From assembly GCA_903911145.1 (NCBI GenBank), contig CAIWCD010000031.1, positions 62,001 through 126,000 on the forward strand: a stretch of 64,000 nt of DNA, written 5' to 3'. The first letter of the stretch is position 1; every line of letters begins with the position of its first letter. Shown in pieces: positions 36,078-63,279 of the stretch. The notes beneath the pieces are model-generated. The model ran no database searches and had not been told where the DNA came from. It was given only the letters and a program-made list of their open reading frames with translations. Made by a program: the position numbers and the translations under genes. This DNA is from an uncultured delta proteobacterium (lineage in GTDB: Bacteria; Myxococcota; Myxococcia; Myxococcales; 40CM-4-68-19).

Positions 36078-36144
36078 GCCCTCTGAATGATTGACGGACG
36101 TGCCGATCGCACAGCAACCTGACGGCTCTCGTTGGAGTCTACGC

Positions 36145-38016
36145 ATGCGTTCATGCTTGGCGATCGCCACGCTCGTGTTCCTCGGTGTCCTTACGGCTTG
36201 CGGCACGACCAGCACGTTGCAGACGTGCGTGCCGGCTTGCGGAGTTGGCGACTATTGCGGGACCGATTTCGTCTGCCATCCGAACCAGGGGGCTGTCGAC
36301 GCGGGCTGCACGAGCGACTCGCAATGCGGGAACGAGGTCTGCCAAGCCTCGACCCGGAACTGCGTTCCTTCCGATTGCAGTCCGGCCTGTCCTTCATTTG
36401 AGACGTGCAGCAAGCGGACCTGCGAGCTCAATGCGGGCCGCTGCAACAGCGCAAGCGACTGCCCGAGCAACCTGCCGATTTGCGACGCGAGCAATACCTG
36501 CGTTGCGCCTCAGACCAATCAGCCCGCGACGCTCACCTATGCGGCGCTGATCGTGACCAATCAGGACTATCTGGCCGACTTCCAGCAGCTCGCGCAGCTG
36601 CACACGCTGACGGGCGTGCCCACCAAAGTTGTGACGGTGGAGTCGATCTGCGCGGCGGCGGGCGCGGGGGCCTGCAGCCAGAGCGATAAGTGCAACGACA
36701 CGCCGAAGGCCATCAAGGACTACCTGATCGCGCAGCACGCGCAGGGCATTACACAGGTCGTGCTTGGCGGCGGCGAGCAGCAGGTCCCGTCGCGCTGGAC
36801 CCACTCAATCTTCAACTATCTATCCATCCTCGGCTTCGATTACGACGAGCAGTTCTATAGCGACTATTACTATTCCGACGTTTCCGAATGGGATACCAAC
36901 CACGACTGCCTCTACGGCGAGCCGACCACCGATACCCCGACCTATCTGCCGACGCTTGGCGTGACGCGCGTTTCGGTCTCGTCGCACGCTGAGATCCAGA
37001 CCTATATCGGCAAGGCGCAGGCATATCTCACGGCATATGACACGACCCGCTTGAATAAAGCGCTCTTTCTCTCGAATGTCGCTGCGGAGCTGCAGGTCCC
37101 GCGCACGAGCATCATTATTCCGATCGACTCCGCGCTCTATTTCGAGGCACCGCAGCGCACGCTCTCGCTGATGCCGAGCACGTTTACCAACAGCAAGCTC
37201 TATTCGAATCTCGGCAGCTGGCCGGGGGCGCAGCCGCTGACGATCGAATCTGAGACGACGGCCTTCGAGGCTGGATACAACATCGCGATCCATTCAGGCC
37301 ACGGCGGCGAGGACGATATTACCGTCGAGCAGGATGGTACGAATGATTACACGGGCGAGATGGCCTATGCGCTGCATAACTCCCAATATCCGCTCCTCCT
37401 CTCCTGCGCGTGCGAGGCGGCCACGTTCGCCGATGGCGATGCCTGCGCAGGGCAGCAGTTCATTACCTCGCCGACGGGCGGTGGCATCGGATATCTCGGC
37501 AATTCGACCATTGGCCTGGGTATCGCGGGCGGTATGCAGATGCTCGATGGGTTCCTGCGCTATGCCTTCAGCAAGACCAATCCGCTGATCGGCGAGGCGC
37601 TGATCGCCGGGCACGCGAACCTGCCGCACCAGGACGGGATCAATATCCCGAATATCCCGATTATCGGCTCATACTATCTGTCCGTGATGGATCCCACCTC
37701 GTGGGTCTGGACGCAGAAGGCCGTGACCTACCTCGGCGATGGATTATTGCCGGTCTATACCAACGCGACGATGAGCCACGCGCCCAGCTTCACCGCGCAC
37801 CGCGCGACGCTGGGGAATTTTACGAGCGTGACCTTCACGCCCTCGGCAGCCGCGATGGGAACGCTCGCGGTTGAGCTGAATAACAATATCTATGAGCTGC
37901 CCATTACCAGCCAGACGCCCGTGACGCTGACGATCGCGGGGACGGCGACGACGCTGACCTATGGATTCTCGTCGGCGACGACGCTGTCGGCCTATCAGCA
38001 GATTACGCTTCCATAA
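36145..38016 (+). CDS. Gingipain-like (family C25) cysteine peptidase lipoprotein
   Basis: A 623-residue lipoprotein (lipobox LTAC, TTGGAG before the start). Residues 25-125 are a Cys-rich module with repeated CxSDxxC-type patterns (TSDSQCGNEVC, NSASDCPSNLPIC), common in myxobacterial surface proteins. The caspase-like C25 domain follows: YAALIVTNQDYLADFQQL, an aromatic Asp-rich stretch (FDYDEQFYSDYYYSD), then the catalytic dyad candidates IHSGHGGEDDI (His386, less likely His383) and LLLSCACEAATF (Cys421 or Cys423). A beta domain ends the protein, as in gingipains. It would cleave proteins outside the cell; specificity is not readable. Confidence 0.78.
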   Translation: MRSCLAIATLVFLGVLTACGTTSTLQTCVPACGVGDYCGTDFVCHPNQGAVDAGCTSDSQCGNEVCQASTRNCVPSDCSPACPSFETCSKRTCELNAGRCNSASDCPSNLPICDASNTCVAPQTNQPATLTYAALIVTNQDYLADFQQLAQLHTLTGVPTKVVTVESICAAAGAGACSQSDKCNDTPKAIKDYLIAQHAQGITQVVLGGGEQQVPSRWTHSIFNYLSILGFDYDEQFYSDYYYSDVSEWDTNHDCLYGEPTTDTPTYLPTLGVTRVSVSSHAEIQTYIGKAQAYLTAYDTTRLNKALFLSNVAAELQVPRTSIIIPIDSALYFEAPQRTLSLMPSTFTNSKLYSNLGSWPGAQPLTIESETTAFEAGYNIAIHSGHGGEDDITVEQDGTNDYTGEMAYALHNSQYPLLLSCACEAATFADGDACAGQQFITSPTGGGIGYLGNSTIGLGIAGGMQMLDGFLRYAFSKTNPLIGEALIAGHANLPHQDGINIPNIPIIGSYYLSVMDPTSWVWTQKAVTYLGDGLLPVYTNATMSHAPSFTAHRATLGNFTSVTFTPSAAAMGTLAVELNNNIYELPITSQTPVTLTIAGTATTLTYGFSSATTLSAYQQITLP

Positions 38017-38669: not shown

Positions 38670-39395
38670 CTAGTGGTGCCCGCCGCCGTGCGAGCCGCCG
38701 CCGCCGTGCGAGCCGCCGCCGCCGTGTGACCCACCGCCGCCATGTGACCCGCCTGAATGCGCGCCCCCGCCACGCGAGCCGCCGCCGTGCACCGGTCCCG
38801 CGTGCGGCTGCGATCCCCCGCGCGAGCCGCCGCGATCGAATCCACCGTGGCTCAATCCGTTGTGGCCAGATCCGCCGTGGCCGAATCCGCCGTGGCCGCC
38901 ACCCTCGTGTCCGCCGCCGCGATATCCGCCCCAGGCGTGACCTGCGCGATGCAATCCGCGATACCAGCCGAATCCCCACGGGCCCCAGGCGCCGAAATAG
39001 GGATATGGACCCCAGCCCCAGAGCCAGGGCGCTGCAAACCAGCCCCAGCCTGAGCCGGGATAGTAGACATATTGATAGGGATTCTCGTCTCCATATTCCC
39101 CCTCGGAGACGTACTGGTTGCCATAGGGCATCCAGACCCAACCATATTGGCTGGTATGCACCCATTGCCCGGTCGCGCCGCGCGGAGGCATCGCGTGAGC
39201 AGCGCTCTCGTCCGCACTGGGCGCGGGTGAGAGCGATTCGGGCGGCGGAGGCGGCGGCTCGTTCGGCTCGTCCGAATCGGGCGCGTCGGCCTGCGGACTA
39301 TTGCGAGCCGCGGCGCTCTTGACGCTATCGGCGTCGGCCCACGAGGGGCCTGCAGCGAGAGCGAGCGCGAGAACCAGGCTGGAGAGCATCTTCAT
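38670..39395 (-). CDS. Exported Gly/His-rich protein with an aromatic middle
   Basis: A 241-residue secreted protein. The ATG at 39395 is chosen because GAGGTG lies 7 nt before it; a TTG at 39401 is too close to that site. A signal peptide (LSSLVLALALAAGPSWA) leads to a Pro-rich disordered part (residues 45-70), an aromatic section with repeated YGWVWMPYG and GWGWFAAPWLWGWG, and a C-terminal Gly/His tail ending in SHGGGG repeats. The tail could bind metal ions; the aromatic repeats recall envelope proteins with YxxGxW-type units. No enzyme family is recognised. Confidence 0.72.
   Translation of the reverse strand: MKMLSSLVLALALAAGPSWADADSVKSAAARNSPQADAPDSDEPNEPPPPPPESLSPAPSADESAAHAMPPRGATGQWVHTSQYGWVWMPYGNQYVSEGEYGDENPYQYVYYPGSGWGWFAAPWLWGWGPYPYFGAWGPWGFGWYRGLHRAGHAWGGYRGGGHEGGGHGGFGHGGSGHNGLSHGGFDRGGSRGGSQPHAGPVHGGGSRGGGAHSGGSHGGGGSHGGGGSHGGGGSHGGGHH
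38673..38753 (-). repeat. Tandem 18-bp repeat coding SHGGGG
   Basis: Near-identical units in GC-rich CCGCC/GTG pattern code SHGGGG about four times, at the extreme C-terminus of the Gly/His-rich protein. Slippage-prone, so copy number may vary. Confidence 0.75.
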
Positions 39396-39525
39396 GGTCA
39401 ATCACCTCTGCGCAACAGACGCGCGACAACCCGAGTCTATTCTCTGACGTCACACGCCGCTCGCTGAATGGTCGATTTGGGTGGCCGTTCCCAAAGCCCA
39501 AAGCCCAACCCCCAACGCCCCGCTT

Positions 39526-41199
39526 CTACTCCTGCGCCGCCTCGCTCTCGAGGCCGTAGCGCTTCGGATTGTTGCAGACGATTGCTGCCGCAATCACCTT
39601 GGGCACGTATTCGCGCGTCTCCTCCGGCAAGAGGTGCAGACGATAGAGATGCCAGAAGTCGCGCTTCTCCTTGCGGAAGCCGCCCGGCTGCTGCGCGATT
39701 TCGTGGAGCACGCGCCGCACGCCCGACTCGCCGCGGTTGTAGCTGGCCATCGCGAGCATGAATGAATCGCTGCCGAACTCGGCGAGCAGATTGGCGAGAT
39801 AACGGGCCGCCGCGTGCGTTTCCTTATTGGGATCGAATCGCTCATCGACCTTCTCGTCGACGCGCAGATCGAAGCTGCGCGCGGTCGAGGCGGTCAATTG
39901 CCAGAGCCCCGCCGCTCCCGCGGAGCTCTTCGCCGTGGGATCAAACTGCGTCTCGGCCCAGGCGATATAGGCCATCTCCTCAGGCAGCCCGAGCGCCTGG
40001 AACTGCTTGAGGATGATCGGCCAGTATTTCAATTTGCGCTTGTAGATGAACTTCAGATTGCTCGATTGCGAGAGCTCGTCGAGATGCCGCTGGAGCGCGT
40101 CCTTGAAGATCGGCGGCACTGCATATGTGCTCGCGTCGAACTTCACGAGGATGGCGCGGATGTCTCGATCGAGCTGATCGCCTTCGGCCGCCGCGGCCTT
40201 CTCCTTGTCAGCCTTGTCGAGCGCAGAGAGCGTGCTCTCGGCTTTCCCGGTGAGCGCCGCGAGCCGCAGCTCGAGCACAGCCAGCTTGTCGGGATCGGTC
40301 TCGTCCTGCATCTGCCGCTGCAGCGTCTCGATCTCCTTGTCGAGCTTCTTCTTCCGGCTCAGGAGTTCGGTGATCTGGTGATGCTGCTGGATGATCACGA
40401 CGCCCATGATGCTGGTCGCGATCGCTGCCGACGCGGCCACTGCGACCACGACCTTCACCCAGAGTTTCTTGGTGCGGCTCTTGGTGCCCTGCTGCACCTG
40501 CTTGAGCGCGTCGGCCATGATCATCATCGTCGCGCCCGACGAGCCGCCGCCTGCGTTCGCGCGCGCATCGGCCACCCGCTTGGCCGCGAGGCCCGCGAGA
40601 TTCGCCGTCTGCGTGTCGGCGCTCATCTTCAGCTCGCCCGCGATGTTCGCCATCTGCGTGGTGTTGTCGATGCGGCGCTCAGGTGCGTGCGCGCGCGGCG
40701 GCTCCACGGCCGGCTCCGCGGGCGCAGCAGGCGCGACGAGATTGGGCCGCGACGCAGGGCGCGGATGGCTGCGCGGCTGCTCGACGATCGTCGCGAGCGG
40801 CTGCTCAACGAGCGTCGCCGAGTCGGTCTTCATCATCTTCGCGAGCGAGACCGCCTCGGTCTTCAGCGGCTCCTCTCGCGCCTGCGTCTTCTTCGCCTCG
40901 CCGAACTCGACGCGGATCACCGGCCCGCCGAGGCCGATCTGGATCTCGTCGCCGCTGCGCAGCTTGCACTTCCTGATCTTGCGGCCCGCGACGAGCGTGC
41001 CGTTGGTGCTGCCGGCGTCGATGACAAACCAGCTGCCCGCGTCGAAGGAGAGCTCCGCGTGATAGCCGCTGACCTTGGTTTCGCGATCGCCCGCGAAGAG
41101 CACATCGCAGCTCGGGTCGCGGCCGATGCGCAGATGCGTCTCGTCGCAGGTGAGCGACTCGCCCGCCTGCGAACCCGAGACATGTTGGATGCGGATCAT
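39526..41199 (-). CDS. FHA-domain transmembrane lytic transglycosylase
   Basis: A 557-residue fusion. The start at 41199 follows AGAGAGG. Residues 1-100 are an FHA domain (LRIGRDPSCDVLF, VSGYHAEL, STNGTLVAGRKI) that would bind phosphothreonine in the cytosol. A disordered Pro/Ala linker follows to about 240, then one membrane helix (about residues 250-272) and a coiled coil with LSRKKKLDKEIETLQRQ. Residues 400-550 are an SLT lytic transglycosylase with catalytic Glu416 in AWAETQFDPTA and GAAGLWQLT. It would cut peptidoglycan in the periplasm in response to kinase signals on the inner side. It is divergent from the choice-of-anchor-D gene. Confidence 0.88.
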   Translation of the reverse strand: MIRIQHVSGSQAGESLTCDETHLRIGRDPSCDVLFAGDRETKVSGYHAELSFDAGSWFVIDAGSTNGTLVAGRKIRKCKLRSGDEIQIGLGGPVIRVEFGEAKKTQAREEPLKTEAVSLAKMMKTDSATLVEQPLATIVEQPRSHPRPASRPNLVAPAAPAEPAVEPPRAHAPERRIDNTTQMANIAGELKMSADTQTANLAGLAAKRVADARANAGGGSSGATMMIMADALKQVQQGTKSRTKKLWVKVVVAVAASAAIATSIMGVVIIQQHHQITELLSRKKKLDKEIETLQRQMQDETDPDKLAVLELRLAALTGKAESTLSALDKADKEKAAAAEGDQLDRDIRAILVKFDASTYAVPPIFKDALQRHLDELSQSSNLKFIYKRKLKYWPIILKQFQALGLPEEMAYIAWAETQFDPTAKSSAGAAGLWQLTASTARSFDLRVDEKVDERFDPNKETHAAARYLANLLAEFGSDSFMLAMASYNRGESGVRRVLHEIAQQPGGFRKEKRDFWHLYRLHLLPEETREYVPKVIAAAIVCNNPKRYGLESEAAQE

Positions 41200-41345
41200 C
41201 GCGACCTCTCTGGCGCACACTACCGTGGGGTCGCACCGTCCGCCGGATGACCGACGCCCGACCGTCTCGCCACAGCGCATCATTCCTGTTGCTGATCCAC
41301 TGTCTGCTCATGCCGGCGCACTTTCCGCCGGCCTGCCGAGGCTGC

Positions 41346-44300
41346 ATGAAATCGACCACGCTGCGCTTTCCGTTCGCGCTCGCCGCCGCTCTTCTCGCTC
41401 TCGGTGCCACCGGCTGCAAGGACAAGCTCGTCGGCATCTATCCCGTCATCGAAGTGAACCCGACCTCGCTCGCGTTCGGGCAGAGCGCCGTCGGCAGCGC
41501 GCAGCAGATCCGCGTCAGCATCACCAACGTCGGCAGCGCGCCGCTCCAGATCAGCAGCATCAAGGTCGCAAGCGATCCGAACAATGAGCTGAGCGTCCGC
41601 GACCTGCTCACCACCGACTGCAACAACCAGGCGATCTCGGGCGACACGACCCTTCTGCCCGCCGCCTGCGCGCGCTTCACGGTGCGCTGGTCGGCGAGCG
41701 GGCTGCACGCGGCCACCGGCGCCATCGAGATCGATTCGAACGATCCGCAGAACCCGGTCGTCACGCTGCCGGTGACGGGGGACGCGATTGCGCCGCAGCT
41801 GCGCTACTGCATCCTGACCGCTGCTGGCGCGGTCGATCCGAATGCCTGCTCCGATCTGGGCGCGTCGCCTGCGGTCATTCCAACGGTCGATTTTGGCACC
41901 AGCCTGCCCGGTGTCTCGACGACGCGGACCGTGCGCGTCTTCAACAAGGGGGGCGCCGCGCTGGTCTTCGCGCCGCAGCCGCAGATCTCCACCACCGGCT
42001 CGGCCGACTACTCGTTCACCGGCACCATCCCCGGCGGCCAGCTCGCGCCCAGCGCCAGCGCCGACTTCGCCATCACGGTGAATCCATCGACGAGCGGGAC
42101 CATCACCAGCGGACTCGACTTTGCCTCCAACGACTTCTCCGTGCCGCAGCTTGAGGTGCCGCTGACGATCAACGTGCCGACCTGGAAGCTCTGCATCGAT
42201 CCCGCGGGCGGTCTGAACTTCGGCATTCTTGCGGTTGGCCAGACGCTCACCAAGACGGTGACGTTCACCAACTGCGGAAATGCTGACTTTACGGTCAAGA
42301 CATTCCACTACGCACCCACCGCGCCGACGACGACGCAGTTCACCATCCCGCCTACCGATCTTCCCGCGCTCAACTCCACGTTCTCCGTCGGTGCCGCGAT
42401 CGCGCTGCCGGTGACCTTCACGCCGACGGTGCAGGAGAGCGACGCGGGCGAGATCACCTACGCGTTCACCATCGGCGCGCTCACGGTCTCCGGCACGGTT
42501 CCGATCATCGGCGGCTCCACGGGCCCGACCATCTCGGTGACGCCGATGACGCTCGCGTTCGGCTCGATCCTCATCGGCTCTCCGCAGCAGATTCGCGTCA
42601 GTGTCTCGAACATCGGCACCGCCCCGCTGCTTGTGAGCGCCATCAAGGTCGCGACCGATCCGAACAGCGAACTGTCGGTCACCGACCTGCTCACCACCGA
42701 CTGCAACAACGCCAGCCGCTCGGGCGGAACGACGCTCGCGCCCGGCGAGTGCGCGCGCTTCACCGTCGCCTGGGCGCCGCAGGCCGCGCACGCCGCGAGC
42801 GGCTCGATCGAGATCGACTCGAACGATCTGACGAACCCCGCCGTTACGCTGCCGGTCACGGGCTCCGCGACGACGCCGCCGCTCCTGCAAGTCTGCGTGC
42901 TCGATGCGACGGGCAACATCGTCCCGACGCAATGCTCGAGCCTCGCGAGCACGCCGCACATCATCCCGACGGTCGACTTCGGTCACGGCCTGCTCTCGGT
43001 GGCGAAGTCGCTCAAGGTGCGTCTGACCAACCAGGGCCAGAACGCGCTCAACTTCGCGCCGGTGCCAGCGCTCTCCGCGACCACTCCTGCCGACTTCGTC
43101 CTCACCGGCTCGGTGCCCGGCGCGACGCTCGCCGCCGGAGCCACGACGGACCTGACGGTCACGGTCACCCCCTCGAGCGCGGGCACGCTGACCGGAGCGC
43201 TCAACATCTCCTCCAACGATCTGCGCGCGCCGACGCTGGCCGTCCCGCTCCAGGTCGTGGTCGGCGGCTGGGCCCTCTGCGTTTCGCCAACCGCGGGACT
43301 CAACTTCGGCGCGCTCTCGATCGGCCAGACGCAGACGCAGACGGTGACGTTCACCAACTGTGGAAATGCTGACTTGACGGTCAGCACATTCTCCTTCGCG
43401 CCGACCTCCCCGACGACGACGCAGTTCGCGCTCCCGGTCAGCCCCACGCTTCCGCCGCCCGCGTCCATCTTCGCCGTGGGTGCCTCGCTCGCGCTGCCGA
43501 TCACCTACAAGCCCACCGTCGTGCAGAACGACGCCGCGGGGATCACCTACGCATTCACGGTCGGCGGCGCGACGCTGCAGGGCACGGTCCCCATCGTCGG
43601 CCAGGGCACGGTTCCCGCCTGCGGCTCGAGCGGCGCGGCCAATCCGACCGTCAACGTCGTCACCGGGTACAGCACCGATCAGACGGGCTCGGGTACGTTC
43701 ACGACGTTCAGTCCCGCGACGACCCCCTCGCCGGTGATCCCGCTCGATTGGGTCAAGCTCGACGCGTCGACCTCGGTCGTCTCGGCGGGAGCTGCAACCT
43801 ACTCGTGGACGCTGACGACGCAGCCGGCCGGCTCGACCACGACGTTGAGCGCCGCGACGGGCCCGGTCGTGCAGATGCAGACGCTCGTCTCCGGCACCTA
43901 CGTCGTCGCGGTGACGGTGAAGGACAAGTTCGGCTGCACGACGGCGAAGTCGATCACCATCCAGGTTGTTCCCGTGGGCGCGATCCACATCGAGCTGACG
44001 TGGGCCGAGGGCTGCGGCGATCTCGATATCCACTACGTCGCGCCGGGCGGCGCGGTCTGCGATGGCCGCGATCTCTTCTATGAGAACCTCGCGGCCTATG
44101 GCGGCACGCCTCCCGATTGGGGCTGCGCGGCAGGCAAGACCTGCAGCGGCGCGCCTTCCGAGCCCGGCGGCAATCACGCGGACCTGACTGCGGTCGACGA
44201 CGCGACGCTCGATCACGACAACGTGACTGGATATGGCCCGGAGAACGTGACGCAGAAGGCGCCGTTTGATTCCCCGGCATCAACTCCATATCAAGTCTGG

Positions 44301-44561
44301 GTCTACTATTATAACGACGGTGCCAGTGGCCTCGGCGGCGGCTGCGGTCTGACCCATCCGACCGTTCGCGTCTACGTCAATGGCGTCTATAACCTTGGTT
44401 TCGTCCTGACGAGCGGCATGAACTATCACAATCGCTGGCACGCGATTGATATCAACGTGGCCAATGCGGGGACGAAGATCACCGTCGCAGCTCCTCCGGG
44501 AACGACGGGCCAGAACTTCTTCACGACCCCCGGTGCCTGCTCTGGTGAGACGCCGCTGTAG
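41346..44561 (+). CDS. Choice-of-anchor-D (ASH-like) lipoprotein with an internal duplication and YfaP-like end
   Basis: A 1071-residue lipoprotein; MKSTTLRFPF starts the signal peptide and the lipobox Cys is in GATGCKDK. Two near-equal units (residues about 37-397 and 398-758) each contain an ASH/choice-of-anchor-D sandwich (VNPTSLAFGQ), a second sandwich (PTVDFGTSLPG) and a third (AGGLNFGILAVGQT, FTNCGNAD). A PKD-like region follows (to about 875), then IHIELTWAEGCGDLDIHYVAPGG, which resembles YfaP/DUF2135-type domains with several Cys. All parts look like binding or structural modules on the cell surface. Confidence 0.82.
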   Translation: MKSTTLRFPFALAAALLALGATGCKDKLVGIYPVIEVNPTSLAFGQSAVGSAQQIRVSITNVGSAPLQISSIKVASDPNNELSVRDLLTTDCNNQAISGDTTLLPAACARFTVRWSASGLHAATGAIEIDSNDPQNPVVTLPVTGDAIAPQLRYCILTAAGAVDPNACSDLGASPAVIPTVDFGTSLPGVSTTRTVRVFNKGGAALVFAPQPQISTTGSADYSFTGTIPGGQLAPSASADFAITVNPSTSGTITSGLDFASNDFSVPQLEVPLTINVPTWKLCIDPAGGLNFGILAVGQTLTKTVTFTNCGNADFTVKTFHYAPTAPTTTQFTIPPTDLPALNSTFSVGAAIALPVTFTPTVQESDAGEITYAFTIGALTVSGTVPIIGGSTGPTISVTPMTLAFGSILIGSPQQIRVSVSNIGTAPLLVSAIKVATDPNSELSVTDLLTTDCNNASRSGGTTLAPGECARFTVAWAPQAAHAASGSIEIDSNDLTNPAVTLPVTGSATTPPLLQVCVLDATGNIVPTQCSSLASTPHIIPTVDFGHGLLSVAKSLKVRLTNQGQNALNFAPVPALSATTPADFVLTGSVPGATLAAGATTDLTVTVTPSSAGTLTGALNISSNDLRAPTLAVPLQVVVGGWALCVSPTAGLNFGALSIGQTQTQTVTFTNCGNADLTVSTFSFAPTSPTTTQFALPVSPTLPPPASIFAVGASLALPITYKPTVVQNDAAGITYAFTVGGATLQGTVPIVGQGTVPACGSSGAANPTVNVVTGYSTDQTGSGTFTTFSPATTPSPVIPLDWVKLDASTSVVSAGAATYSWTLTTQPAGSTTTLSAATGPVVQMQTLVSGTYVVAVTVKDKFGCTTAKSITIQVVPVGAIHIELTWAEGCGDLDIHYVAPGGAVCDGRDLFYENLAAYGGTPPDWGCAAGKTCSGAPSEPGGNHADLTAVDDATLDHDNVTGYGPENVTQKAPFDSPASTPYQVWVYYYNDGASGLGGGCGLTHPTVRVYVNGVYNLGFVLTSGMNYHNRWHAIDINVANAGTKITVAAPPGTTGQNFFTTPGACSGETPL
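41454..43619 (+). repeat. Two-copy in-gene tandem duplication, about 1083 bp per unit
   Basis: Unit 1 (41454-42536) and unit 2 (42537-43619) share order and long stretches of near-identical DNA, for example CTGCTCACCACCGACTGC at offset 1083 bp and GACGGTGACGTTCACCAACTG at offset 1086 bp. The copies have diverged by substitutions and small in-frame changes. Confidence 0.8.
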
Positions 44562-60798: not shown

Positions 60799-63279
60799 AT
60801 GACCCCTTCGTTTCTCGTGCGCGCAGCCGCCACTCTTGCCGTCGTCATTTCATTCTCCGCAGGCGCCGTTGATCTCCCGCGCGGCGTCTATCGGAAGCGG
60901 AACCCCAGCACGGCGATTACCGACCTGACGAGCTGGTCGCATCCCGTCTCCTGCAGCGGTGGCAGCTGCTCGGTCCAGATGCACTATTACGGCGGGCACG
61001 TCATCTCGAACCCCAAGGTCTATGCGGTCTATTGGGGCAGCTCGGTCGACAGCTCCGTGACGAGCGGTAACCCGGCCTTCTACAAGGCGATGACCAACTC
61101 GTCTCTCTTCGAGCAGCTCGCCGAATACAACACCAATACAAACGGCGGGACCAACCAGTTCATCGGCCGCGGCACCTTTGGAGGCTCGTTCACCATTACG
61201 CCGTCGAATACCAGCACGAGCATCGCCGATTCGGACATCTCCTCGGAGCTCGATGCGCAGATCACGGCCGGCAACCTGCCCGCGCCGGACGCCAATACCA
61301 TCTATATGACCTACTTCCCCGCGGGCGTGACGATCAGCCAGGGCAGCGGGACCTCCTGCCAGGATTTCTGCGCCTATCACGGCACCTGGACGCGCAATAA
61401 CCAGAGCGTCTATTACGGAGTGTTCCCTGACTTCAGTGGCAGCTGCAGCAGCGGCTGCGGCACTGGAACGCTCTTCCAGAATATGTGCTCGGCCTCGACG
61501 CACGAGCTGGCGGAGGCGACCACGGACGCAGAGATCGGAATCGCCACGGGCTCCGTTGGTGCGCCGATGGGCTGGTACGACTCGGAGAACAATTCCCAGG
61601 GCGAGATCGGCGATATGTGCAACACCGACTCGACGATTACCGGCCTCGACGGCCAGACCTATACGGTGCAGGAGGTCTATTCGCGCACGGATAACAACTG
61701 CGAGGACAATCGCCACGCGGCGCAGGATTTCCAGATCTATATGAACCCCAATACCGCGTCGGTCGCGACGGGCGGCTCGGTCTCCGTGCCGATCACGACC
61801 GTGACGAACGGGGGAAATGCGCAGACGCTCACGTTGACGGCGACGAATCTGCCCACCGGCGTGACGGCGACGTTCGACTCCGCGTCGATCAGCTCTACGG
61901 GCTCGACGCATCTGCATCTGGCGGCGAGCAACTCTGCAGCGCAGGCGAAGGATGTCGTCGTGGTCGTCAAGGCGACGGCGGGCTCGCTCGTGCACACCGC
62001 CTCGGTCCTCCTGCAGGTCGGCGGCGTCGTCGTCAACCAGCCGACGATTGCCATCACCGGCGTCACCAGCGGCGCGACCGTCGGCGGCACGGTCAGCTTG
62101 ACCGCGACGGGGACCGCGGGCGCTGGCAGCACGCTCTCGAACGTCACGCTCTCCATTGACGGCACGCAGGTCGCGACCGGCACCGCGGCGGCGACCTACC
62201 AGTGGAATGCGAGCTCGGCAACGCCGGGCAGCCACACCATCTCGGCGACCGCGACGGATGCAGACGGCGGCGCCAACTCGACCTCGCTCACCGTCACCTC
62301 GACTGCAACGCAGCCTCCGACGCTCACGCTCAACGCTCCTGCCGACGGCTCGAATGTCTCCGGCACCATCTCTCTCTCCGCGACCGCGACTCCGGCGTCT
62401 GGGCAGCAACTGCAGAGCGTGACGATCTCCGTCGACGGCACGCAGGTTGCGACCGGCGCCTCGTCGGCGAACAAATCCTGGGACAGCTCGGCGGCCGGCA
62501 ATGGCAGCCACACGATCAGCGCCACCGCCACCGATACCAATGGAGGCAGCGCATCCGCGCAGGTCACGGTGAATGTCGTGGTGCCGCCGACCGTCGCGGT
62601 CACGACGCCGTCGAACAATGCGACCGTCTCGTCGACCGTGAATCTCACCGCGACCGCCACAGCTGCGGGCGGGACGAGTCTGTCGAACCTGACGTTGTCG
62701 GTGAACGGAACCGATCTCGTCAGCGGCGCGAGCTCCCCGCAGAGCTTCTCCTGGGACACCACGCAGGTGACGAACGGGAACTACCAGGTGACCGCGACTG
62801 CCACCGACAGCGACGGCGCTTCTGCGACCAGCTCGATCGTGACGGTGAAGGTCTCCAATGACTTCACGCTCGCGCTCTCTCCCTCGAGCGCGACGGCGAC
62901 GATCGGTGGCGCGCCCGCGGTCTTCACCATCACCAGCACCAAGAGCGGCGCGCCCACGACGATCTCCCTGGCGGCGACCAACCTGCCCGCGGGCGTGCGC
63001 GCAGTCTTCTCCGCCACGACCATGTTGGCTGGCGGCAGCGCGACCCTCACGCTGACCGCGCCGGCGGGAACGCTCCCGGTTTCGGCCGCCGCGTTCCAGG
63101 TCTTCGGCAGCAGCACGCAGAGCCCGAACGGCCACTCGGCCTCGGGCCAACTCACGGTCCAGAATGCCTCATCGGGCTGCGCGAGCGGAAAATCGCCCCA
63201 GTGGGAGCCGCTCGCAGCGATTGGCCTCTGCTGGCTGATTTTGCGCCGCCGGTCGCCGCGCCTTGCGTCTGCGCGCTAA
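60799..63279 (+). CDS. EXORDIUM-like secreted protein with Ig-like repeats and MYXO-CTERM-like tail
   Basis: An 826-residue secreted protein. Signal peptide (LVRAAATLAVVISFSAGA), then an EXORDIUM-like domain to about residue 300: YYGGHVISNPKVYAVYWG, CQDFCAYHGTW, STHELAEATTD (His235) and GEIGDMCNTDS. Five Ig-like sandwiches follow (about residues 305-410, 414-500, 506-593, 594-688, 690-790) with repeated SHTISATATDADGG-type ends. The end GCASGKSPQW, a short hydrophobic stretch (LAAIGLCWLIL) and RRRSPR fit the MYXO-CTERM sorting tail. A paralogue of its first domain is at 8597. It ends at a strong terminator. Confidence 0.78.
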   Translation: MTPSFLVRAAATLAVVISFSAGAVDLPRGVYRKRNPSTAITDLTSWSHPVSCSGGSCSVQMHYYGGHVISNPKVYAVYWGSSVDSSVTSGNPAFYKAMTNSSLFEQLAEYNTNTNGGTNQFIGRGTFGGSFTITPSNTSTSIADSDISSELDAQITAGNLPAPDANTIYMTYFPAGVTISQGSGTSCQDFCAYHGTWTRNNQSVYYGVFPDFSGSCSSGCGTGTLFQNMCSASTHELAEATTDAEIGIATGSVGAPMGWYDSENNSQGEIGDMCNTDSTITGLDGQTYTVQEVYSRTDNNCEDNRHAAQDFQIYMNPNTASVATGGSVSVPITTVTNGGNAQTLTLTATNLPTGVTATFDSASISSTGSTHLHLAASNSAAQAKDVVVVVKATAGSLVHTASVLLQVGGVVVNQPTIAITGVTSGATVGGTVSLTATGTAGAGSTLSNVTLSIDGTQVATGTAAATYQWNASSATPGSHTISATATDADGGANSTSLTVTSTATQPPTLTLNAPADGSNVSGTISLSATATPASGQQLQSVTISVDGTQVATGASSANKSWDSSAAGNGSHTISATATDTNGGSASAQVTVNVVVPPTVAVTTPSNNATVSSTVNLTATATAAGGTSLSNLTLSVNGTDLVSGASSPQSFSWDTTQVTNGNYQVTATATDSDGASATSSIVTVKVSNDFTLALSPSSATATIGGAPAVFTITSTKSGAPTTISLAATNLPAGVRAVFSATTMLAGGSATLTLTAPAGTLPVSAAAFQVFGSSTQSPNGHSASGQLTVQNASSGCASGKSPQWEPLAAIGLCWLILRRRSPRLASAR

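Follow-up and report, generated by a model that had tools for sequence, protein, structure and literature searches.

Gene Organisation in the Window

The window analysed here is a stretch of 64,000 nucleotides from an uncultured soil bacterium, a delta proteobacterium of the Myxococcota, corresponding to positions 62,001 to 126,000 of contig CAIWCD010000031.1. Its minus strand carries a gene, starting with an ATG codon, for a protein of 557 amino acids, here called P0001, which combines an FHA domain, a single membrane helix and a lytic transglycosylase (LT) domain. The coordinates of these features, and of related loci in other contigs, are collected in Table 1.

The divergently oriented neighbour (41247–44561, plus strand) codes for a large protein in which ASH/HYDIN-like Ig domains are repeated (Pfam E 4.6e-46); its lipoprotein-like start lies further downstream than the start codon given in the ORF list. 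Just downstream of the P0001 gene lies a minus-strand gene (38670–39401) for a small Gly/His/Ser-rich protein which is apparently secreted and has no match in Pfam, and beyond it a plus-strand gene (36091–38016) for a peptidase of family C25 (Pfam E 1.2e-41) whose N-terminus appears lipoprotein-like by eye.

Table 1. Features of the P0001 gene and of related loci; window positions unless a locus is named.
Feature	Position	Strand	Basis
P0001 gene (FHA, membrane helix, lytic transglycosylase; 557 aa plus stop)	39526..41199	-	ORF; alignment of relatives starts at residue 1
FHA domain, residues 24–89; phosphate-site residues R27, S44, N66	40933..41130	-	Pfam PF00498, Foldseek, residue counts
Predicted cytoplasmic linker, residues 103–247; low confidence mostly to 178, then helical	40459..40893	-	AlphaFold pLDDT and secondary structure
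Threonine motif S-G-x-T-[MV]-x-[ILV], residues 221–227, Thr224; candidate phospho-acceptor/FHA ligand	40519..40539	-	T in 25/26 type I rows with a letter
Single transmembrane helix, residues 252–270	40390..40446	-	Hydropathy; within long model helix 221–299
Predicted periplasmic helical hairpin, residues 271–338	40186..40389	-	AlphaFold model secondary structure
MltD-like lytic transglycosylase region, residues 376–551; Pfam SLT 406–499	39547..40074	-	Pfam, NCBIfam, sequence and fold matches
Glu416 codon; catalytic Glu by homology	39952..39954	-	Alignment with MltD; type I residue counts
Clade B locus with contractile injection system baseplate genes	L178 = G000:C24:195500-215400		Gene content
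Kinase, membrane segment, LT fusions	L074:1649-3538, L071:1826-3673		Cys/His-rich N-terminus, zinc-finger-like by eye

Domains and Conserved Residues

The original prediction, made from the sequence alone, that an FHA domain and a lytic transglycosylase are joined in this one gene is borne out by Pfam matches far above the cut-offs for both the FHA domain (E 6.4e-18; 65.4 bits against 20.7) and the SLT domain (E 1.7e-23; 82.9 bits against 21.3). The closest fold to the FHA domain found with Foldseek is GarA (6i2r), of the GarA/OdhI group, with a TM score of 0.94 at 1.2 Å; DgcB is also among the matches and YscD ranks lower. A Pfam match to Yop-YscD_cpl was obtained as well (E 3.6e-12). The phosphate-binding residues R27, S44 and N66 are all intact in P0001 and, counting rows with a letter at the site, they occur in 24/26, 24/26 and 24/27, respectively, of the type I proteins, while their equivalents in the divergent type II proteins described below are kept in 13, 14 and 13 of 14 rows.

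For the C-terminal part (residues 376–551), the solved structure with the best sequence match is that of P. aeruginosa MltD (8rhe; 6.8e-20), and the fold, too, is nearest to MltD. The best C-terminal NCBIfam model is NF008050 (murein transglycosylase D; E 8e-27), although its score of 93.7 bits against a cut-off of 508 leaves P0001 outside the MltD equivalog, and a Pfam scan of the protein found no LysM repeats. Glu416, predicted earlier to be intact, aligns with a glutamate of Pseudomonas aeruginosa MltD that we take to be catalytic, and it is present in all 27 type I rows together with G431, Q434, A485, Y487 and N488. The motifs G-x-[WM]-Q and A-x-Y-N are those of family 1 (SLT) enzymes. Judged on its SLT score, putative catalytic glutamate and sequence motifs, P0001 is a family 1 lytic transglycosylase of the MltD kind, and the muramidase activity that the original prediction proposed to test is not supported as a description of it.

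An AlphaFold model built on a 24-row alignment (mean pLDDT 79.5, pTM 0.51) is confident for the FHA and LT domains, and its low pTM means that the placement of the domains relative to one another is not predicted. Residues 103–178 appear disordered and are followed by helices at 179–193, 196–216, 221–299, running through the membrane segment, and 303–338. In the model, the last two form a helical hairpin after the membrane. A coiled coil had been proposed between the domains: the helical stretch beyond the membrane is present in the model, and the coiled coil itself is putative.

Membrane Topology

P0001 has a single hydrophobic segment (Kyte-Doolittle mean 2.36), lying between the two domains where a membrane helix had been expected, and exactly one such segment was found in each of the 28 proteins examined, namely P0001, 24 type I relatives, one type II protein and two kinase forms. 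The failure of membrane-helix prediction that would have refuted the original prediction therefore did not occur. The helix is preceded by five K/R and no D/E residues and followed by four K/R and one D/E. Since this charge asymmetry is modest, the N-inside orientation that we infer rests mainly on the nature of both domains and on the FHA, which begins at residue 2 without a signal peptide. P0001 is very probably bitopic, with the phosphothreonine reader inside the cell and the LT outside.

The Protein Family and Its Distribution

The architecture, which was sought in other genomes as the original prediction had suggested, recurs in 27 type I proteins and, in the same layout of FHA, linker, one membrane helix, hairpin and LT, in 14 divergent type II frames, one of them a fragment, from genomes labelled as Myxococcota, Gemmatimonadota and Pseudomonadota. 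A scan of genome contigs yielded 16 loci, and Pfam detected both FHA and SLT in all relatives tested (five type II and four type I). The architecture is that of a conserved family rather than of a fusion by chance.

Some rows are partial or were omitted: residues are missing from the N-termini of L013 and L068, masked bases interrupt L151, and L025 and G011:C534 are fragments. The last of these (L127) is a broken second copy whose FHA portion ends in a deletion and whose LT portion is spread over several frames; it is either a pseudogene or an assembly error. A third, divergent protein, L177 (G037:C146), has an FHA domain that by eye lacks the Asn, a linker containing A-H-T-M-L-L-S, a membrane helix and an SLT-like domain; it was counted in neither type.

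A profile of the membrane segment and hairpin matched 17 of 195 genomes of the phylum, 14 of them strongly (E < 1e-20). Family f1, to which the window belongs, accounts for the strong matches together with a few members of f2, f3 and f4; the largest family of the order, f6, holds none of the 17. One of the matched genomes, G154, carries a true type II relative, and at the matched loci of two others, G178 and G181, no frame had recognisable FHA, LT or kinase motifs. Outside the phylum, and with L118 included in it, this profile matched 10 of 295 genomes from the class to which a Gemmatimonadota-labelled MAG belongs, 3 of them strongly, and 3 of 200 from the family of a Rubrivivax-labelled MAG, the one strong match being that MAG itself. 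A type II profile matched 8 of 295, 8 of 399 (3 strongly) and 7 of 189 genomes (2 strongly).

In a first tree, built without an outgroup and without L118, the Acidobacteriota-labelled L019 adjoins an Anaeromyxobacter-labelled row, which may reflect horizontal transfer or mis-binning, MAG labels being sometimes wrong. When other LTs were included, two of the rows intended as outgroup (L005 and L008) being themselves family members, type II grouped beside ordinary MltD-like LTs (93/94), a position where long branches meet. The two types may share a single origin or may stem from two separate fusions.

Kinase-Transglycosylase Fusions

In genomes G002 and G007 the hairpin-LT module is preceded by a protein kinase domain and a membrane segment in place of the FHA half (Pkinase E 2.7e-43 and 3.8e-40). 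Inspection by eye shows HRD, DFG and APE motifs, and the gene following each fusion encodes a stand-alone SLT protein. The tree without an outgroup places the kinase forms inside type I, with support of 100/97 for a 20-row fork and 100/99 for the fork uniting the kinase forms with the solo copies; in a shorter tree bearing an outgroup, the solo copies lie apart from the kinase forms and support is low. As the kinase forms are nested in type I, the wall-cutting module seems to have exchanged its cytoplasmic signalling half.

A Conserved Threonine in the Linker

The type I linker, which spans 145 columns in the alignment of 27 rows, shows strong drift, and its best conserved positions are R213, A205, G217 and T224. 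Ahead of the membrane helix a threonine with a hydrophobic residue at +3 is nearly invariant in both types (25/26 type I and 13/14 type II), and it lies 23–29 residues from the membrane segment in type I and 19–28 in type II. When the type II linker was aligned independently (14 rows), the best of its 123 columns were this threonine and an arginine four residues on, in 13/14 rows each; the remaining row, L176, has serine. At +3, each of the 26 type I rows that have a letter there carries I, L or V, and each of the 14 type II rows carries I, L, M or V. In a joint alignment the threonines of the two types do not fall in one column.

A T-x-x-hydrophobic string is common in itself and is notable here only for its fixed position. 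Among 28 FHA frames of the window's own genome, the motif S-G-x-T-[MV] before a membrane helix occurs only in the two FHA-LTs, and inspection by eye of the GltG linkers of five genomes revealed it in none. Look-alike strings occur elsewhere in the proteins L077 and L095.

FHA domains read phosphothreonine, with a preferred residue at +3. Known examples include ligands within the same protein: the tail of DgcB carries a conserved seven-residue pattern around T14 in which the +3 residue is V, and the same source (PMC6733907) cites GarA and OdhI as binding peptides of their own. The GarA phospho-motif ETTS is located outside its FHA domain (PMC5448819). The conserved threonine with its hydrophobic +3 residue, taken with these precedents, leads us to propose a self-ligand. 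By analogy, the threonine suggests the signature of an FHA ligand and a switch like those of GarA, OdhI and DgcB. The original prediction suggested a search for phosphorylated partners; binding of partner proteins is not the only option, since the conserved threonine in the linker of the same chain is just as good a candidate ligand.

The exceptional relatives point in different directions. In L146 and L147, type I proteins from genomes in the Gemmatimonadota class, the FHA R, S and N are all replaced while the LT residues are kept and the linker retains R-R-T-M-E-V, so that the threonine there must have a use without a working FHA domain. In L176, the type II protein with serine for threonine, the FHA R and N are also lost, and in L072 an absent linker goes together with N66 changed to Q. 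L023 has L in the T224 column and T one residue further on. T224 also lies near the start of the model helix 221–299, where it could act as a helix cap. Because of these mixed cases (L146 and L147 against; L176 and L072 for) and the possible helix cap, we rate a role of Thr224 as FHA ligand, in cis or in trans, at a little under an even chance.

The Clade B Paralogue and an Injection-System Locus

The window copy belongs to clade A of the family. The same genome carries a clade B paralogue at G000:C24:198494-199963, which is 44% identical to P0001. Among 26 family loci and the window, homologues of DUF2997 and DUF1257 are found in 10 and of an AAA protein in 9, all in clade B, where the gene order is AAA, DUF1257, DUF2997, FHA-LT. 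Downstream of the clade B FHA-LT gene of the window's genome are genes for an 863-residue FHA/coiled-coil protein, a Ser/Thr kinase and gp25 and, further on, for a TIGR02243 baseplate J protein and for Tail_P2_I/CIS12-like and CIS13-like proteins. Of five other clade B loci, two of which reach a contig end, four carry a kinase homologue and three a baseplate homologue. This gene content suggests a connection of contractile injection systems with phospho-signalling and with local opening of the wall.

For the clade A loci and the window, an all-against-all comparison of flanking frames yielded, among the matches listed, no common cluster beyond the gene and its antisense frames, and a kinase neighbour is not conserved. 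Given that P0001 is in clade A, the injection-system link bears on its nearest paralogues and not on the window gene itself.

Proposed Mechanism and Alternatives

Intact FHA residues, 35 Pkinase matches in the genome, the apparent exchange of kinase for FHA and the kinase of the clade B locus all point from Ser/Thr phosphorylation to wall remodelling. The direct link foreseen in the original prediction is therefore partly supported, and it is the best candidate reading of the sequences. Control by phosphorylation through the FHA domain is, in our view, probable; sequence cannot tell whether it would turn the enzyme on or off.

As the favoured explanation we propose an inner-membrane LT under phosphothreonine control, operated by a switch between Thr224 and the FHA domain, whose chances of being right and wrong we judge evenly balanced. 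In this model the FHA domain and linker would face the cytoplasm, and the hairpin and LT the periplasm. Thr224 (T-x-x-I), just inside the membrane, would be phosphorylated by a Hanks-type Ser/Thr kinase, and the phosphothreonine would be bound by the FHA domain of the same or a neighbouring chain, as in OdhI/GarA and DgcB. A change of spacing or dimer state would then pass along the continuous helix 221–299 to the hairpin and LT, altering the place or time of cutting. The sequences themselves show the order of the domains, the one membrane helix, the intact residues of the catalytic and FHA sites, the conserved threonine and the exchange of kinase for FHA, whereas the topology, the phosphorylation, the self-binding, the direction of control and the passage of the signal are predictions. 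The near absence of serine at the site, together with the preference of FHA domains for phosphothreonine, counts for this switch; the small net charge difference across the membrane and the lack of a conserved kinase neighbour in clade A count against it. The alternatives below are partly compatible with it and with one another, and the confidence placed in each need not add up to certainty.

The FHA domain might instead bind a phosphorylated partner, such as a kinase, a scaffold or a component of secretion or motility, and thereby position an LT that is always active, the linker threonine being structural or serving another reader. The genome has 29 FHA matches and 35 Pkinase matches, the clade B locus encodes both a kinase and a large FHA/coiled-coil protein, and L146 and L147 keep the threonine beside a broken FHA domain; what such recruitment leaves unexplained is why one threonine and its hydrophobic +3 residue should be kept in both types amid a drifting linker, and we consider it the less probable course, if a serious one. 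Rather unlikely, in our estimate, is that the protein is the dedicated LT of an envelope-spanning machine, in clade B a contractile injection system, which would open the wall locally and be tied by its FHA domain to the machine's control by threonine phosphorylation, clade A being a paralogue that has moved and does the same work at another place. The clade B gene order, with the kinase and injection-system genes that follow it in the window's genome and the recurrence of their homologues at other clade B loci, speaks for such an anchor, but the window copy has no neighbours conserved in its clade and no such machine adjoining it.

It is improbable that the FHA domain serves as a scaffold that binds no ligand, like that of YscD-type proteins, and that P0001 is simply a membrane-tethered LT free of phospho-control: the Yop-YscD_cpl match speaks for this, as do L146 and L147, in which the FHA residues have been lost, but the phosphate-site residues are retained in nearly all rows of both types and the nearest folds are phosphothreonine binders, with YscD lower. 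An assembly or frameshift fusion, or a chance pairing of domain matches, has a negligible likelihood even though the assemblies are MAGs and one copy is visibly broken, as it is ruled out by the relatives, which repeat the architecture in 27 type I frames and 13 complete frames of type II, drawn from many assemblies.

Comparison with Known Systems

Bacterial Ser/Thr kinases affect the cell wall mostly through synthesis enzymes and scaffolds and, to our knowledge, the control of wall-cutting LTs is largely open. A protein with reader and cutter in one chain may let kinases switch wall cutting directly, and Thr224, together with the natural swaps (a kinase for the FHA domain, and lost FHA sites), makes the question accessible to point mutation. 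Taken singly, the halves of P0001 are of known kinds and unremarkable. Searches of open-licence papers turned up no FHA-LT or kinase-LT fusion, and public domain-architecture listings may well show the combination. The available portion of a survey of autolysin architectures (PMC8051824) makes no mention of FHA or kinase domains, and in that of PMC12419801 the FHA domain is named in one reference only.

MltD is a periplasmic or outer-membrane LysM enzyme. P0001 shares the LT fold and catalytic region of P. aeruginosa MltD (8rhe/8rhf/8rhi), with 29–33% identity over about 200 columns, and differs in having an inner-membrane helix and a predicted cytoplasmic FHA domain and in showing no LysM repeats in the Pfam scan.

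Two FHA-led proteins of membrane systems, GltG (gliding) and TagH (type VI secretion), resemble P0001 through weak model matches which cover only the FHA domain and linker. An identity with either was rejected, the scores being 51.1 bits against a cut-off of 650 for GltG (NF033760) and 50.2 against 120.25 for TagH/VI_FHA (TIGR03354).

GarA and OdhI have the closest FHA folds and, as phospho-site, a threonine motif outside the FHA domain but in the same chain; unlike P0001, they are soluble metabolic regulators with the motif N-terminal to the FHA domain and with neither a catalytic domain nor a membrane helix. DgcB of Bdellovibrio resembles P0001 in that its FHA domain, also a fold match, is fused to an enzyme and binds a phosphothreonine with a hydrophobic +3 residue in its own tail. 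The output of DgcB is c-di-GMP synthesis in the cytoplasm, whereas that of P0001 is predicted to be peptidoglycan cutting across the membrane.

AgmT/MltG of Myxococcus xanthus (PMC11444678) is an inner-membrane LT in a myxobacterium; it belongs to a different LT family (YceG/MltG) and has no FHA domain. The paper calls inner-membrane localisation unique to the YceG/MltG family, which the FHA-LT proteins, if confirmed, would contradict. It also asks whether other LTs, once anchored in the inner membrane, could serve gliding, and the FHA-LTs appear to be naturally occurring inner-membrane LTs from another family. We tentatively suggest, at somewhat less than even confidence, that they form a new class of one-protein phospho-switch in which a protein's own FHA domain reads a membrane-side phosphothreonine to direct peptidoglycan cutting, the kinase-LT fusions being a 'writer' version and clade B connecting the switch to a contractile injection system.
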